From: Bacteroidales bacterium
GTDB taxonomy: Bacteria; Bacteroidota; Bacteroidia; Bacteroidales; UBA12077
DNA length: 32,747 bases
Assembly (NCBI GenBank): GCA_030156305.1
Contig: JASGMZ010000005.1
Coordinates: forward strand, 1 to 32,747
Reading direction: 5' to 3'
Positions 766-27,200 of the stretch are shown here, in pieces. Under the pieces are notes generated by a model that had not been told where the DNA came from, did not search any database, and saw only the letters and a program-made list of their open reading frames with translations. Position 1 is the stretch's first letter; the number at the start of each line of letters is the position of its first letter. Made by a program: the position numbers and the translations under genes.

Positions 766-2658
766 TAAGTATTTGTTTAGTACTGAAAGTAATTTTTTAG
801 GATTAACAGGTTTTGTAATATAATCATTAATGCCTAAAAGATAACCTTTGTCAATTTCCACGGGCATTGCATAAGCCGATTGAGCGATGATCGGGATATT
901 TTTATTTAAGGCTTTAATTTGTTTTGTCGCTTCGAAACCATCCATCTCAGGCATTTTAATGTCCATAATGATTAGGTCTATATTTTGATGTTTTTTAAAC
1001 AGGCGAACTGCTTCTTTTCCATTTTTAGCTCTAATTAATTTTGCCTTGGTTCTTTTTAATACTTCCTCTATATAAAGATAATTATTTGGTTCATCTTCAG
1101 CAATAAGAATTTTTTTATCCTTCCATTGGTAATTTGTAGTTTTAGGAGGACTTTCTTTTTTATTTCGGGTATCTTTAATCTTCTGATAAGGGATCGTAAA
1201 GAAAAAACTCGAACCCGATCCGGGATAGGATTCGACCCATATCTTGCCACCAAGGAGTTCAACCAGGCTTTTGCATATAGCAAGGCCTAACCCTGCTCCC
1301 CGATATAATTTTGTTTTATCATCTTCAATTTTTCTGAAGCGTTCAAAGATTAACTCTTTTTTCTGCTGATCCATTCCTATACCACTATCTTTTACATAAA
1401 AAAGAAGTGTGTCCGATTTTTGAAATTCATAACCAAAACTTATAAATCCCTCTTCGGTAAATTTTAATGCATTGTCAATAAGGTTTGAAATAATTTGAGT
1501 TAAACGAAGTGGATCGGTAAGAGTGATAATGCTTTGTTCTTTTTTAGTTAGATTAACGGAAAGATCAATGTTTTCTTTTCCTTTTTGTTTTTTTATTTCA
1601 CAATATGATTCATAGATATCCATTAAGGTTTGATTTACATCACATTCTTTAGGTATAATTTTTAATTGGCCAGCTTCAATTTTAGAGATGTCTATGATAT
1701 CATCAATAAGTTGTAAAAGATTATTTCCGCTATTGTGGATTAATTTTATATAATTTTGTTTTTCTTCGGGCGAGATAGATGAGTCGGGCATGGTAAGTAA
1801 TTCGGTAAAACCGAGAATGGCATTCATAGGAGTTCTTATTTCGTGCGACATATTGGCTAAGAAAGCAGATTTTAGTTTGTCACTTTCTTCGGCTTTCATT
1901 TTTGCTTCAAGCAGATTTTTTTCTGCCTCATCGCGGGCTGCTTCTCTATTCAAAATTTGTTGAAGCATATTATTAAAATCCTCGTAAAGTATGCCTATTT
2001 CATCATTGCTTTTTCTTTCAATTTTCACCTTGTAATTGCCCTCTTTTGATATTTTTCGGGTAAGTTTTGCTAATTCAAGTATTGGTTGTGATATAGGTTT
2101 CTGAAAACCACGTGCAAGAATAAACGATAAAATAATCATCCCGGCTAACACGCCAATCATAATTAGAACATATTCTTTGATTTTGTCTGTTATGATGGAT
2201 GAATCCACTTCAGTAATAATAATACCATATTTAAAATCCTGATAAGAAATAGGATGTTCAATGGTTAAAATTCCAGATTCGAAACTATATTTTGTGTCTG
2301 TTAAATTATCTGGATCATCGTATAAGGGAGGAATAAATATTTCATTCGTTTTTTTATAAGATGCAAATAAAATCCCATTCCGATCATAAATTGCTCCACT
2401 CATAAAATCAGGAAGCGATTCAAGTTTAGATAATATTTCTGCGGCCCCTTTATTATCATCAAAAGTTAACGATGCTACGGAGTAATCTCCAACTAACTGT
2501 GTATTTAAAATGGCATTATCAAGCAGGTTTTTTTTCAAACTGTTAATGTCATTTATTCCAATAATAGTAAAACCAACGATAAGCGTAACACTGCTGGTAA
2601 GCAGAATAATGCTAACAATTTTATTTTTTATAGATATATTTTGAAAAAACTTCATCAT
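748..2658 (-). CDS. Hybrid sensor histidine kinase/response regulator (CHASE8-like, HAMP, HisKA, HATPase, REC)
   Basis: This is an inner-membrane phosphorelay sensor of 636 residues. A membrane segment at about 13-34 precedes a periplasmic region of about 130 residues that resembles the CHASE8 sensor of YfiN-type proteins. A second membrane segment (about 163-184) leads into HAMP (about 184-237). HisKA carries phosphoacceptor His272 in SHEIRTPMNAILGF. The ATPase shows the N box (NLIDNALKF), the DSGIGM G1 box and GAGLGLA. A C-terminal receiver (about 515-632) has Asp566 and Lys616. There is no DNA-binding or GGDEF output, so a separate Hpt or regulator is expected, and none lies in this window. 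It is the last gene of a tight operon, 2 nt after the yfiR-like gene. Two adjacent start codons exist. The last residues (GLVIN and stop) come from a MITE-like element. Kinase assignment is certain; the CHASE8 call is by resemblance. Confidence 0.95.
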   Translation of the reverse strand: MMKFFQNISIKNKIVSIILLTSSVTLIVGFTIIGINDINSLKKNLLDNAILNTQLVGDYSVASLTFDDNKGAAEILSKLESLPDFMSGAIYDRNGILFASYKKTNEIFIPPLYDDPDNLTDTKYSFESGILTIEHPISYQDFKYGIIITEVDSSIITDKIKEYVLIMIGVLAGMIILSFILARGFQKPISQPILELAKLTRKISKEGNYKVKIERKSNDEIGILYEDFNNMLQQILNREAARDEAEKNLLEAKMKAEESDKLKSAFLANMSHEIRTPMNAILGFTELLTMPDSSISPEEKQNYIKLIHNSGNNLLQLIDDIIDISKIEAGQLKIIPKECDVNQTLMDIYESYCEIKKQKGKENIDLSVNLTKKEQSIITLTDPLRLTQIISNLIDNALKFTEEGFISFGYEFQKSDTLLFYVKDSGIGMDQQKKELIFERFRKIEDDKTKLYRGAGLGLAICKSLVELLGGKIWVESYPGSGSSFFFTIPYQKIKDTRNKKESPPKTTNYQWKDKKILIAEDEPNNYLYIEEVLKRTKAKLIRAKNGKEAVRLFKKHQNIDLIIMDIKMPEMDGFEATKQIKALNKNIPIIAQSAYAMPVEIDKGYLLGINDYITKPVNPKKLLSVLNKYLGLVIN

Positions 2659-2660
2659 TT

Positions 2661-3251
2661 TTATTCTTCTACTGGTTCTACTATTTTAGCTGAGTTAAGT
2701 AAATAGAAACTCATTTGTAACGGTGATTTTAGTACAGCTGTTTCATTTATTTCAAAACGTAACTTATTGTCTTTTTCAAAAAAATTAATTAACACCCCTT
2801 TTTCTGCAAATCCTTTTGTTTCGCCAATAGTTAATATGGGTTGTTGTTTGGTTATTGCAATAATCTGATCGATATTCTTTTTTTCAGATTCGGCGATAAA
2901 TAGAATATGAGATCCCTGAATTTCATTTAAATTATGAATATTTTTGATTATTACACGTTTATTTTTTATTTTTTGTATAGCATAAATTTGAATAAGATTT
3001 TCGGTTAAAGGAGTTTCTCCAATAACAGATATTATAAAGGGCTCATCTGGATTGTCTATTAGGCTTTCTTTGGGCCAGGTTATAAAACGCGAAAATTTCT
3101 CTAAATAAACAGCCTTAAGTACATAAATACTTGCTTGTGAAACCCCCTGTAATGATAATAATGATAAAAGGATTATGAGTCCTGTTCTTTTAAATACTGA
3201 ATAGGATAAATTATTTTTTATGGTTATATGTTTATTGAAATTTATGCTCAC
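2661..3251 (-). CDS. YfiR-family periplasmic protein (DUF4154)
   Basis: This is a 196-residue exported protein of the YfiR/HmsC (DUF4154) family. An N-terminal hydrophobic segment (about 23-38) ends in VSQAS, a plausible signal-peptidase site. The mature part begins with the family-typical pattern YVLKAVYLEKFSRFITWP, then PFIISVIGE, GSHILFIAES and a C-terminal region with INFFEKDNKLRFEIN. In Pseudomonas, YfiR is a periplasmic repressor of the membrane cyclase YfiN. Here it is wedged between a ligand-binding lipoprotein (3 nt gap) and a CHASE8-like kinase (2 nt gap), so by inference it modulates that kinase. The protein contains no cysteine, so the disulfide-based control known for Pseudomonas YfiR cannot apply. 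The family call is good; the partner is inferred. Confidence 0.85.
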   Translation of the reverse strand: MSINFNKHITIKNNLSYSVFKRTGLIILLSLLSLQGVSQASIYVLKAVYLEKFSRFITWPKESLIDNPDEPFIISVIGETPLTENLIQIYAIQKIKNKRVIIKNIHNLNEIQGSHILFIAESEKKNIDQIIAITKQQPILTIGETKGFAEKGVLINFFEKDNKLRFEINETAVLKSPLQMSFYLLNSAKIVEPVEE

Positions 3252-3254
3252 AAG

Positions 3255-4550
3255 TTATTTCTCAAAGTGGGTCAATTCAATATACTGATTGTTTTCAAAA
3301 CTCCATATTACAATTTTTGGAAAAGGATCACCATTAATATCAAAATTAATAGGGCCTGATGCTCCCTCATAATTAATTGATCGGCCTTTTAGTAAAATAT
3401 TTTTTCCAACATCAAATTCATTTACATTAATTTTAATCACATCATTATTTGGGTCATAATCATCAACACCTGAAATTTCGCGTAAATATTGTTTAATCTG
3501 TAAAGGGTTTGTGGTGTTTCCTTTTAGCATTGCATATGCCAGACAATAAACCGCATCGTAAGCATGTTCTGAGTATGTAGCTGGTAAAAATCCAAATCTT
3601 GATTTGTAATTATTTTTATATAACGCATAATTTGGATTTCCCTCGTTTGTACTGGATATTCCCAAAATATCATCTATCAACTCGGGGTTTCCGTTGGTTA
3701 AAATCTCTTCGGGTAAAATCCCGTCATTTACAAAAATATAGGGTTTTTTATTTAAAGATTGATATTTTGAATTATTAAAAATACGATGAGTAAGTACCGC
3801 AATTTCAGAATTAAAAGCAACAATAAAAAGTACATCTATTTCGCTATTAAAAATGGTACTCATTTCATATTCAAAATCGTAAGTGTTTAAATTTACCTCA
3901 TTAGGGAAACTCACATTTGCTTTAACGTTACCGCCTAATTCAGTAAACATATCCTTAATGATAGTCGACAGGCCGGTTCCAAACCGGTCGTTTCTAAATA
4001 AGATGGCGGCATTATTTAGTTGCAACGTGTCAACACAATATTCGGCAGAAATAGTACCAAAAGTATAGTCTGACGGGCAGGTACGCCAAATTAAATCGTT
4101 GTCATCAAGCAAAGTAATTTCGGGCGTTGTAGCTGCATAACTCATCATTAACATATTGTTTTTAACACATTCCTCAGCCATTTCAACAGCAACAGAAGAA
4201 AAAGTCGGGCCAATAATGAGGTTTATATTTTGTTCATATAATTCATATATTAGATCAACTCCTAATTCAGGATTTCCTCCGGAGTTTTTAAAAATTAGTT
4301 CAATTTCTCTTTTCTCTCCGTTTATTACTAATCCTCCTTTTTGGTTTATCTCCTCCATAGCCAGCTGTGCACCAAAAAACATATTTTCAACTTGCTCGCG
4401 TAACATTGACACATCGCCTACCACTGCTATCTTTACAGGGTTTTTATATTGCTTTTTGTTAAAATCTTCGGTTAGTTTTTCGCAACTCGACATAAAGACT
4501 ACAAAACCAATAATAAAAACAAATATTTTATATCTCTTCAACTTGCTCAT
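3255..4550 (-). CDS. LivK-like periplasmic ligand-binding lipoprotein (Peripla_BP_6 type)
   Basis: This 431-residue protein resembles branched-chain amino-acid/urea-type substrate-binding proteins (periplasmic-binding fold I). The N-terminus is a lipoprotein signal with lipobox FMSSC (Cys23). The body starts NPVKIAVVGDVS, followed by GAQLAMEEINQKGG, the hinge region LIIGPTFSSVAVEMAEE and a second lobe AAILFRNDRFGTGLS; the C-terminal part has YSEHAYDAVYCLAYAM. No ABC permease or ATPase gene is nearby. It lies in an operon with a TonB receptor (12 nt upstream), a YfiR-like protein and a hybrid kinase. A sensory rather than transport role is therefore likely, although it could also feed a transporter encoded elsewhere. 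The ligand cannot be read from the sequence. Confidence 0.85.
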   Translation of the reverse strand: MSKLKRYKIFVFIIGFVVFMSSCEKLTEDFNKKQYKNPVKIAVVGDVSMLREQVENMFFGAQLAMEEINQKGGLVINGEKREIELIFKNSGGNPELGVDLIYELYEQNINLIIGPTFSSVAVEMAEECVKNNMLMMSYAATTPEITLLDDNDLIWRTCPSDYTFGTISAEYCVDTLQLNNAAILFRNDRFGTGLSTIIKDMFTELGGNVKANVSFPNEVNLNTYDFEYEMSTIFNSEIDVLFIVAFNSEIAVLTHRIFNNSKYQSLNKKPYIFVNDGILPEEILTNGNPELIDDILGISSTNEGNPNYALYKNNYKSRFGFLPATYSEHAYDAVYCLAYAMLKGNTTNPLQIKQYLREISGVDDYDPNNDVIKINVNEFDVGKNILLKGRSINYEGASGPINFDINGDPFPKIVIWSFENNQYIELTHFEK

Positions 4551-24975: not shown

Positions 24976-25782
24976 TTATTTATTCCAGAATTCAGCACAT
25001 TTTTCCTGTTCAGCAATTCTTAATATTGAAAAACCTAATTCAATTGCTTTACTAAAGTCTTTACATGCCTGCTCTTTTTCACCTAATTCGTATCGCGCCA
25101 ATCCACGAAGAAAGTAAGCATTTTTATTATTAGGGTCTAATAATATTGCTTTATTACAATCAGAGACAACTCCTTTCAGGTCATTGGGGAATCTGGTTCC
25201 GGCTCTGTTTACGTAAACCCTTGCGTTTGAAGTGTCTGTTAACAGATATTTATCAAAATCTTTTTTTGCCAGTTTGCTCTTGCCTGTGGCTAAATATATC
25301 CTTGCACGGGTTAAATATAATTCTGGTTCTGGTGATTCTGATATTTTATCCTCCAGCGTCTTTAAAAGATCATTGAAATCAGGCCTTGTCCAAAATCCCA
25401 TCGTAGTATTTACCCTTCCGCTACAATCGTCATCAATTAAATCAAAGGATACATAATAGTCTGTTTGATACACCTTGTACTGCCCGTCATCCTGGCACAT
25501 TTGCCCTTCTTTGTCAATAAATTTAATGGTATCTCCTGATAATACATAGTTTGATATAACATCAACCGTTTGGTTATTTCCAAAATCAGCTTCAATGCTA
25601 CCGTTTTCTTTAAAATTAAAACTAATTGGCCCTGTGTGTCCAATCCTTACCCATTTACCATGAATAAGATTTTCAGGTTTTACAACGTTTTGCTCATTTT
25701 GATTATTTTTCTTTGTACTTTGATTGCACCCGGATAAAAATCCGATAGTACAAATTGCTAATAAGATCAATTTTGCTTTCAT
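24976..25782 (-). CDS. Lipoprotein with N-terminal beta domain and C-terminal TPR repeats
   Basis: The ORF track starts at 25827, but the ATG at 25782 gives MKAKLILLAICTIGFLSGC, a clean lipoprotein signal, so this start is chosen (268 residues). After the lipobox the N-terminal part, HGKWVRIGHTGPISFNFKENGSIEADFG, continues as a beta-rich domain of about 110 residues, similar in style to lipocalin-like domains. The C-terminal part has three TPR-like units: PELYLTRARIYLATGKSKLAKKD, ARVYVNRAG and NAYFLRGLARYELGEKEQACKDFSKAIELG. It is probably periplasmic or outer-membrane. It lies upstream of the DUF2200 gene, 15 nt apart. No specific function can be given. Confidence 0.75.
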   Translation of the reverse strand: MKAKLILLAICTIGFLSGCNQSTKKNNQNEQNVVKPENLIHGKWVRIGHTGPISFNFKENGSIEADFGNNQTVDVISNYVLSGDTIKFIDKEGQMCQDDGQYKVYQTDYYVSFDLIDDDCSGRVNTTMGFWTRPDFNDLLKTLEDKISESPEPELYLTRARIYLATGKSKLAKKDFDKYLLTDTSNARVYVNRAGTRFPNDLKGVVSDCNKAILLDPNNKNAYFLRGLARYELGEKEQACKDFSKAIELGFSILRIAEQEKCAEFWNK

Positions 25783-25909
25783 ATCGGTTTTGTTTACTAT
25801 TTGTATTGTTTCATTTTCAATGAGCAATACCTCTTTTTAAACGAAACCTAAAGGTAACTAAAAAAAATGGAAGTACAATTTCATTCAAAACGAAGGGTAA
25901 GGATACTAT

Positions 25910-26177
25910 TGTCCGGCGAGTCGAAAAACAAGCACCGTGAGCGTTAAGAAAAATCTGCTGTTCGAAGCACTGAACGGAGGGAAGTGCAAGTTTAGATTTT
26001 TAGCTCACATCGCGTAGTTTTTCGAGTGAGGCGGGCGCAGCCTTGAATTTCTTTACGTACTTTCTTGTTTCAAGACAAGAAAGTATGTGGGGCATGGGGT
26101 AAAGCGCCTGAAAAAAGAAATCGTTAAATGATAAATAAAACAAGGTTTCAGAATAGATGTAATTTTTTTATCGGACA
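25910..26177. repeat. Structured intergenic repeat with nested stems and long hairpin
   Basis: This fills most of the 428-nt gap between the TPR lipoprotein and the repeat protein. Nested pairs are: TCGAAAAAC (25921-25929) with GTTTTTCGA (26017-26025); GTGAGC (25937-25942) with GCTCAC (26003-26008); AAAAATCT (25949-25956) with AGATTTTT (25994-26001); and GCACT (25967-25971) with AGTGC (25983-25987). A second 14-bp hairpin ACGTACTTTCTTGT-TTCAAG-ACAAGAAAGTATGT follows at 26055-26088. TGTCCG (25910-25915) and CGGACA (26172-26177) bracket the whole. GC content is higher than the flanks. No ORF is credible. It is a repeat or structured RNA; similar-looking sequences occur between genes in other Bacteroidota as far as I recall. 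Confidence 0.75.
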
Positions 26178-26210
26178 GCAGTGAAAAAAATAAATGGTAA
26201 GTACTAATAT

Positions 26211-27200
26211 TTATAATGCATCTTTATCCTGCTCCTCCGGCGTTAAATCAGAGTAAAGAAATTTATTGGTTTCAATCCATTGGTTTAACGAATAATCCCA
26301 TTTGTAAATAATTTCCATATACAGTTCTCCCTCTTCGTTATATTCAGAAAGTGTTTTATCAAAATTAACCCATTTTTTTTTCGAGTAATCCCATTTTTGA
26401 TGGATTACTTCTATTAAACGGCCTTCCCGGCCGTATTGATACATTATCTTTAGTCCGTTAAGCCATTGTTTGGTGTAATTGTTCCATGATATTCTAATTT
26501 CCTGTGTTTTGTCTCCCCTAAAATTATAAAGATATTCGTATTTTCCTTCGGTACTCCATTTTTTGGTGTCTGCATTCCAGTTTTTAATGAAAATTTCGTT
26601 AGGATAGGAATATTCTCCGGGATAATACAACTCAAATTTTTTATAATACTCCCACTCATTTTTTATGCTGTTATATTTGCTAATGGTAATATTGTTTTCC
26701 AAACCATCCATATTGTAATCCATAATATACCGTACGGTATTAATCCATTCTTCGCCTGGCTTTTGCCATTCCTGAAATAATATTTCTTTTCGTTCGTTAA
26801 AACGGTTGTAATAAGATGTTTTTAACTGCGTATTTACCCAATCGTTGAACGATGGCCTCCAGGTCTGTACCAGCTTTTCCTGTTCGTTGCCTTTTTTATC
26901 GTAAGCAAACAATTCCTGGGAAACATTTATCCATGCTTTTTCATCGTAATTCCATTCCTGGGTAAGTGTTCGTATAGGGTCATCATTTTTGTTATAAATA
27001 ATGATTTCACGCTGATAGGTTTCCCATTGGTTTGATTCCCGATTCCAATGATGTTTATATAAAGTGTCAATATTTTCAATACGTAATGAGTCAGTAATTA
27101 ATGAGTCAATTTTTTCGGGCAACTGAGCAGTTAGTATTCCCGAAGAGAGGAGGAGTGTTACTAAGAATAAACATTTTTTTATGACGGTATATTTAAACAT
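26211..27200 (-). CDS. Secreted protein of W/Y repeats
   Basis: This 329-residue protein has a signal peptide (CLFLVTLLLSSGILTAQ). The rest is about nine degenerate repeats of roughly 31 residues with the pattern W-x6-7-W-x9-11-Y and often a following G or N, for example EWNYDEKAWINVSQELFAYD and KWDYSKKKWVNFDKTLSEYN. The repeats make a beta-rich solenoid plausible. They recall DUF3836-type secreted proteins of Bacteroides, but that is not confirmed. There is no sorting domain at the C-terminus (ends PEEQDKDAL). It stands alone between a structured repeat and the divergent CDF transporter gene. Confidence 0.7.
   Translation of the reverse strand: MFKYTVIKKCLFLVTLLLSSGILTAQLPEKIDSLITDSLRIENIDTLYKHHWNRESNQWETYQREIIIYNKNDDPIRTLTQEWNYDEKAWINVSQELFAYDKKGNEQEKLVQTWRPSFNDWVNTQLKTSYYNRFNERKEILFQEWQKPGEEWINTVRYIMDYNMDGLENNITISKYNSIKNEWEYYKKFELYYPGEYSYPNEIFIKNWNADTKKWSTEGKYEYLYNFRGDKTQEIRISWNNYTKQWLNGLKIMYQYGREGRLIEVIHQKWDYSKKKWVNFDKTLSEYNEEGELYMEIIYKWDYSLNQWIETNKFLYSDLTPEEQDKDAL

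Follow-up and report, generated by a model that had tools for sequence, protein, structure and literature searches.

The gap between two minus-strand genes in the 32,747-nt stretch of Bacteroidales DNA analysed here (the window) folds strongly, and the question is what kind of element it holds. Both flanking genes are ordinary: one encodes a TPR protein (24976-25782) and the other (26211-27200) shows only a sub-threshold match to DUF3836. The initial annotation left the choice between a structured RNA and a mobile structured repeat. The repeat is supported by many dispersed copies, which end sharply, have unrelated flanks and in places form tandem arrays, while a dedicated RNA is possible but unproven. 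The window probably contains a single copy, slightly decayed, from a non-autonomous family of dispersed intergenic repeats that extends across the phylum.

Structure and ends of the window copy

Direct reading and folding placed four nested stems on the plus strand where they had first been proposed, over the same span of 105 nt (hairpin 1, 25921-26025). Stem 1 pairs TCGAAAAAC (25921-25929) with GTTTTTCGA (26017-26025; 9 bp), stem 2 GTGAGC (25937-25942) with GCTCAC (26003-26008; 6 bp), stem 3 AAAAATCT(G) (25949-25957) with (T)AGATTTTT (25993-26001; 8-9 bp) and stem 4 GCACT (25967-25971) with AGTGC (25983-25987; 5 bp). Folding also gives a 5x1 internal loop on this strand, GTTAA (25943-25947) opposite a single A (26002). 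The 14-bp hairpin reported downstream was likewise recovered as hairpin 2 (26055-26088, plus strand), with 13-14 bp between arms at 26055-26068 and 26075-26088 and a loop, TCAAG, which is invariant in the seed alignment of the family. It is preceded by AGCCTTGA and a T-rich spacer (26039-26054, plus strand), in which GCC is the 3' half of the closing that the family forms with its 5' GGC, and CTTGA is complementary to the loop of hairpin 2. A third hairpin (GGGGCATGGGGTAAAGCGCC, 26089-26108, plus strand) is a 3' extension present in some subfamilies only, among them that of the window copy (GGGG..GGGGCAAAGCCCC); it is intact (GGGGCAAAGCCCC) in loci L002 and L024.

The minimum free energy of 25910-26177 is -82.4 kcal/mol, compared with -62.7 ± 4.4 kcal/mol for dinucleotide shuffles (z = -4.43; none of 200 as low). 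The reverse strand of this region is less stable (-63.6), leaving the plus strand as the stabler sense. A weak terminator-like site (26027-26045, plus strand) and the T-rich sequence behind hairpin 1 would fit an ordinary intrinsic terminator. However, the plus strand is antisense to its neighbours, because both flanking genes lie on the minus strand, and neither a terminator nor chance structure sits easily with a z-score of -4.4, a second copy that stops at the same points and covariation throughout the family. An explanation of this kind is extremely improbable.

The second copy lies in the same genome (G000:C9:13960-14237), is 90% identical and has unrelated flanks. Homology between the two stops sharply at both ends (ATTGTCC and CAGTG) and defines a unit at 25908-26183 (plus strand), slightly longer than the region bracketed in the initial annotation. 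The bracketing motifs are present (TGTCCG at 25910-25915 and CGGACA at 26172-26177) but probably do not form a genuine terminal repeat. TTGTCC belongs to the repeat's own 5' end (ATTGTCCGGCGAG, 25908-25920, plus strand), as judged by comparison with the second copy (GGCATTGTCC) and with GGCATCGATTGATGAGCC of genome G337 (L198), while CGGACA..CAGTG resembles a downstream IS4-type end (CACTGCTGTCCGATAAAA, 26166-26183, minus strand), similar to the terminal inverted repeat of DUF4372/DDE_Tnp_1 elements. The bracket therefore combines the 5' end that belongs to the repeat itself with a foreign IS4-type end; the window copy may have been joined to that foreign end and the composite copied as one piece within the genome. 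In the window copy the family's closing GGC, retained in the second copy, is replaced by ACT (25905-25907), so the outermost pairing is lost.

Were TGTCCG...CGGACA to represent terminal repeats, the whole unit would be a MITE of the IS4 type (DUF4372/DDE_Tnp_1) with the hairpins as passengers. The right end in the window does match TTGTTGTCCGRTAAAA ends, 60 of which were found among 198 genomes from the order, spread over 28 of them (4 in a reversed control); one locus (L057) joins such an end to a gene encoding DUF4372 and DDE_Tnp_1 domains, and both ends occur together in some short elements (L062, L049 and L064). IS4-type MITEs of Bacteroidota are also similar in size to the repeat. In contrast to them, the window copy lacks a full left terminal inverted repeat, having only ATTGTCCGG, and direct reading found no target-site duplication (approximately 10 bp expected of the class) flanking either own-genome copy. 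Furthermore, the window's genome yielded no further end of this kind, and family members elsewhere do not have IS4-type ends. A MITE origin is very unlikely. The three short elements and 57 further matches, TTGTTGTCCGRTAAAA-ended with varied internal sequence and many of them at contig ends, appear from their sequence to be DUF4372/DDE_Tnp_1 MITEs in their own right.

A Bacteroidales MAG contig (L024) carries a full-length relative. Paired changes support hairpin 1, with A-U replaced by G-C at 25940/26005 and U-A by C-G at 25971/25983, and one pair in hairpin 2 has likewise changed on both sides. Taken by themselves, three sequences provide weak evidence (17 of 500 shuffles reach the same level). 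A further 26-bp match, 96% identical to the unit's tail (L014, G037:C92:40127-40152), lies in an apparently unrelated AT-rich stretch and is probably due to chance.

A dispersed family that keeps its fold while its sequence turns over

An order-wide BLAST search revealed a common core, consisting of AGCCTTGA, a T-rich spacer and a hairpin with loop TCAAG, and 16 seeds were used to build a model (R1). It matches the window copy at 26039-26088 (73.1 bits). When Bacteroidota genomes were searched with it, matches (E ≤ 1e-3) were found in 95 of 396 sampled genomes (approximately 0.4 expected by chance). Units are intergenic, approximately 170-230 nt in size and often multi-copy (up to 15 copies reported per genome), sometimes clustered or tandem, and copy number is very uneven between related genomes. 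Tandem arrays include three units in L134 (G492:C7:58000-64000, 2597-3407) and five in L140 (G622:C1, 3043-4586), with a spacing of approximately 330-460 nt. Polymorphic-toxin and integron arrays were rejected as an explanation of such clusters, which sit among ordinary genes. Three core patterns gave 0, 3 and 0 matches in viral contigs, and no repeat copy was found in phages. The single plasmid match is a perfect-looking, unannotated unit on pHALHY01 of Haliscomenobacter hydrossis DSM 1100 (NC_015511.1:34-210, minus strand).

No recurrent neighbour protein was found among 948 ORFs around units in 48 genomes. The gene 5' of the unit lies on the same strand in a ratio of 47:23; that on the 3' side lies on the opposite strand in 48 cases and on the same strand in 42. 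The 5' bias could be explained as plain promoter avoidance.

The unit begins with GGC-CT, followed by a long, variable hairpin 1, CA-GCC, TTGA with a T-rich spacer, and hairpin 2 with loop TCAAG. Alignment of within-genome copies, whose flanks are unrelated, places the left edge at GGCC and the right edge one nucleotide past hairpin 2. Both ends are sharp in genomes G717 and G429 (GGCC... and ...GTACA/GGTAGCA) and no target-site duplication was seen in the aligned copies of either. Aligned left edges read GGCCT, GGCAT or GACCT; the right edge is an A after hairpin 2. The closing GGC/GCC covaries to GAC/GTC. Hairpin 1 spans 122-242 nt in the measured set, with its 3' arm upstream of AGCC. Although their stems are unrelated, ten representatives drawn from nine genomes mostly adopt a common fold (an outer closing around the long stem, then spacer and hairpin), the window copy and its L024 relative being the least regular. 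The 5x1 internal loop (GC|GUUAA|..A|GC) recurs in several unrelated subfamilies, as seen in folds of the window copy and of units from G717, G429, G188, G202 and G670.

A check for compensatory change in the stems, on which the initial annotation had made its reading depend, found it to be strong in hairpins 1 and 2. In the R1 seed alignment (16 seeds) double changes occur at 11 of 13 pairs. Among 77 distinct R1 matches, 97.6% of hairpin 2 cells are paired and 256 are double changes, compared with 66.9 ± 8.6 after shuffling (reached in none of 500 shuffles) and 11-30 in sliding controls; fitting the matches to the model favours structure to some extent, but only 16 seeds went into building that model. 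For the basal stem of hairpin 1, 60% of 124 unselected elements score above the 95th percentile of mismatched-arm controls. A set of 55 elements picked for having the stem, which illustrates rather than tests it, has 91% of cells paired against 61% with shuffled arms, and 210 double changes against 66. Sequence thus turns over while paired changes keep the two-hairpin fold.

The fold is also strand-specific. Neutral drift predicts equal numbers of G-T and A-C deviations from Watson-Crick pairing. In six within-lineage alignments, G-T (79) outnumbered A-C (34) on the element strand, and the reverse-strand fold showed the opposite (42:70). The strand test, which used a consensus structure with G-U forbidden, gave P = 3e-5, a nominal value because cells here, as in the covariation counts, are not independent events. 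As the excess of G-T over A-C is confined to one strand, selection acts on a single strand of element sense, which on this sequence evidence may be either RNA or single-stranded DNA; single-strand folding fits both. The repeat consists of discrete, multi-copy, intergenic units with sharp ends and selection on one strand, and is not tied to a conserved neighbouring gene.

Comparison with known RNAs and mobile elements

Tolerance of G-U on one strand and the conserved GUUAA/A internal loop would suit a dedicated regulatory or trans-acting RNA that spreads by duplication and functions as RNA. In addition, the invariant CTTGA and TCAAG could form a candidate pseudoknot, a pairing proposed from complementarity; however, the two motifs hardly vary. 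The unit also has no conserved gene neighbour, its copy number is very uneven among related genomes and it forms tandem arrays. No sigma-70-type promoter match was found inside or just upstream of it, and a search of Rfam 15 at gathering and loose thresholds gave no match to a known family on the element, either in the window or at related loci. Such an RNA is decidedly unlikely.

Strand-specific folding and the lack of a target-site duplication also fit single-stranded DNA transposition, and the repeat could be a REP-like element moved by a Y1 (HUH) transposase, for example of Bacteroidetes RAYT group 5 (subclass 2.6). According to one study (PMC6006769), genes of that group have 'atypical secondary structures' on their flanks, and further copies of these structures occur at other places in the genome; their sequences are absent from the text. 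Y1 genes are modestly commoner where the repeat is present (75 of 95 genomes, compared with 196 of 301 without it, by hand tally). In contrast, 30 Y1 loci held no repeat copy at E ≤ 0.01 (best 19.7 bits, E = 0.019), and 17 of 18 further Y1 loci from repeat-rich genomes had none nearby, leaving G500 as the only exception (1 of 48 overall). Nor does any copy lie near the sole clear group-5-like gene among these 48 loci (L097, in repeat-rich G048). Conversely, 129 repeat loci (535 kb) contain no Y1 signature, and no Y1 match was found in G188, G777, G797 or G739, each of which has many copies. The repeat also has no GTAG/GTGG foot: the GTAG in the window copy is inside an internal loop (26014-26017 region). 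A Y1-mobilized REP is, on this evidence, which covers a single group-5-like gene, unlikely.

The exception in G500 is an IS200-type Y1 gene that contains a single in-frame TAG and is located within hairpin 1 of a repeat copy (L257, G500:C1:892000-896200, 1631-2385); a second copy lies approximately 450 nt upstream in the opposite orientation. The gene, which carries hairpins of its own at its ends, appears to have been inserted into the copy. The idea that hairpin 1 bearing a gene is an autonomous version of the repeat was rejected, since distant arms are mostly neighbouring copies or chance and the G500 gene has hairpin ends of its own.

Likenesses to REP/REPIN elements with RAYT (TnpA_REP) are nevertheless considerable: both are dispersed, non-autonomous intergenic palindromes with a strand-specific fold and no target-site duplication seen, both tolerate G-T pairs, and in both the sequence classes change while the fold stays. 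However, REPs measure 20-40 nt (REPIN doublets approximately 100 nt), carry a GTAG/GTGG foot and flank a transposase, whereas the Bacteroidota repeat has approximately 170-230 nt and two unlike hairpins, is closed by GGC..GCC and lacks a foot, and no transposase was found to be linked to it. IS200/IS605-derived non-autonomous elements share its subterminal hairpins, single-strand-specific fold and lack of target-site duplication, but the repeat unit is without tnpA. No IS200/IS605-type target was evident, as no tetranucleotide is common to the left flanks of 12 copies from G429 and 7 from G717 and no tetra- or pentanucleotide is conserved there. The repeat thus works like a REP- or MITE-type non-autonomous element, yet departs from both families in the defining features that could be checked.

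BOX, ERIC, Correia/NEMIS and Bcr1-type repeats are intergenic imperfect palindromes of 100-200 nt, often transcribed at 3' ends. They resemble the repeat as structured intergenic palindromes but belong to other phyla and have other sequences; unlike them, it has one architecture throughout its phylum despite near-complete stem turnover. Integron attC sites were rejected, as the two ends of their palindrome should read RYYYAAC ... GTTRRRY and those of the repeat are GGCC...AGCC, and no integrase-like protein recurs nearby.

Possible mode of spread

Spread is suggested by the distribution of the sequences, no mobility event having been caught. Copies may spread through a single-stranded intermediate that is recognized by its fold and handled in trans by an enzyme encoded elsewhere, and would then persist in gaps between genes, mostly behind gene 3' ends. 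A transcribed copy might act as an RNA hairpin, serving as a mild terminator or 3'-end stabilizer. It is possible, though doubtful, that the family represents an undescribed phylum-wide class of mobile element in which the two-hairpin single-stranded fold is selected, stems are free to vary, ends and loops are fixed and the trans-acting enzyme is neither RAYT/IS200 nor DDE. If so, spread could occur via, for example, an RNA or single-stranded DNA intermediate.

No mobilizing enzyme was identified among linked genes and the Y1 loci examined. Comparison with empty sites fails within the genus because relatives are too diverged (proteins of the flanking genes are only approximately 35-38% identical). 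In the sole orthologous pair examined (G682 and G717), the copy was common to both or the flanks had diverged, and there was no clean empty site.

The family is apparently undescribed in the sources searched, since no earlier description of the motif was found in the open-access literature by sequence or topic. About one in four of the Bacteroidota genomes sampled contains this structured repeat, with its strong covariation and sharp ends. In well-studied members of the phylum, it offers a means of studying both the spread of bacterial structured repeats and their possible action as RNA. With the model and anatomy, many intergenic gaps that otherwise have no explanation can also be annotated.

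Individual genomes carry variations on the unit. In G048 (L010, L016-L021) a TTGCGATGCA..TGCATCGCAA palindrome, which is conserved, and a GCCCCTACGGGGC hairpin come after the unit, so that here it is part of a larger composite repeat; one of these loci also matches Rfam Acido-Lenti-1 (L021, 1655-1700; 39.8 bits). In G429 (L169-L182) a second structured repeat (..CGCCTTGATGAAAACAAAGGC..GGTCCTTTTGTTGCCGGACAAAAGGAC) lies in the opposite orientation upstream of many copies, often abutting them, and is possibly a sister family. A subfamily pattern search revealed few true relatives outside G337. That genome also contains deletion derivatives (L193, L201 and L202), in which a shared CAAGCAA connects the 5' start GAGCCGAAAAACAAGC directly with hairpin 2's 3' half, a junction that resembles a slippage product of the 5' arm and the loop.
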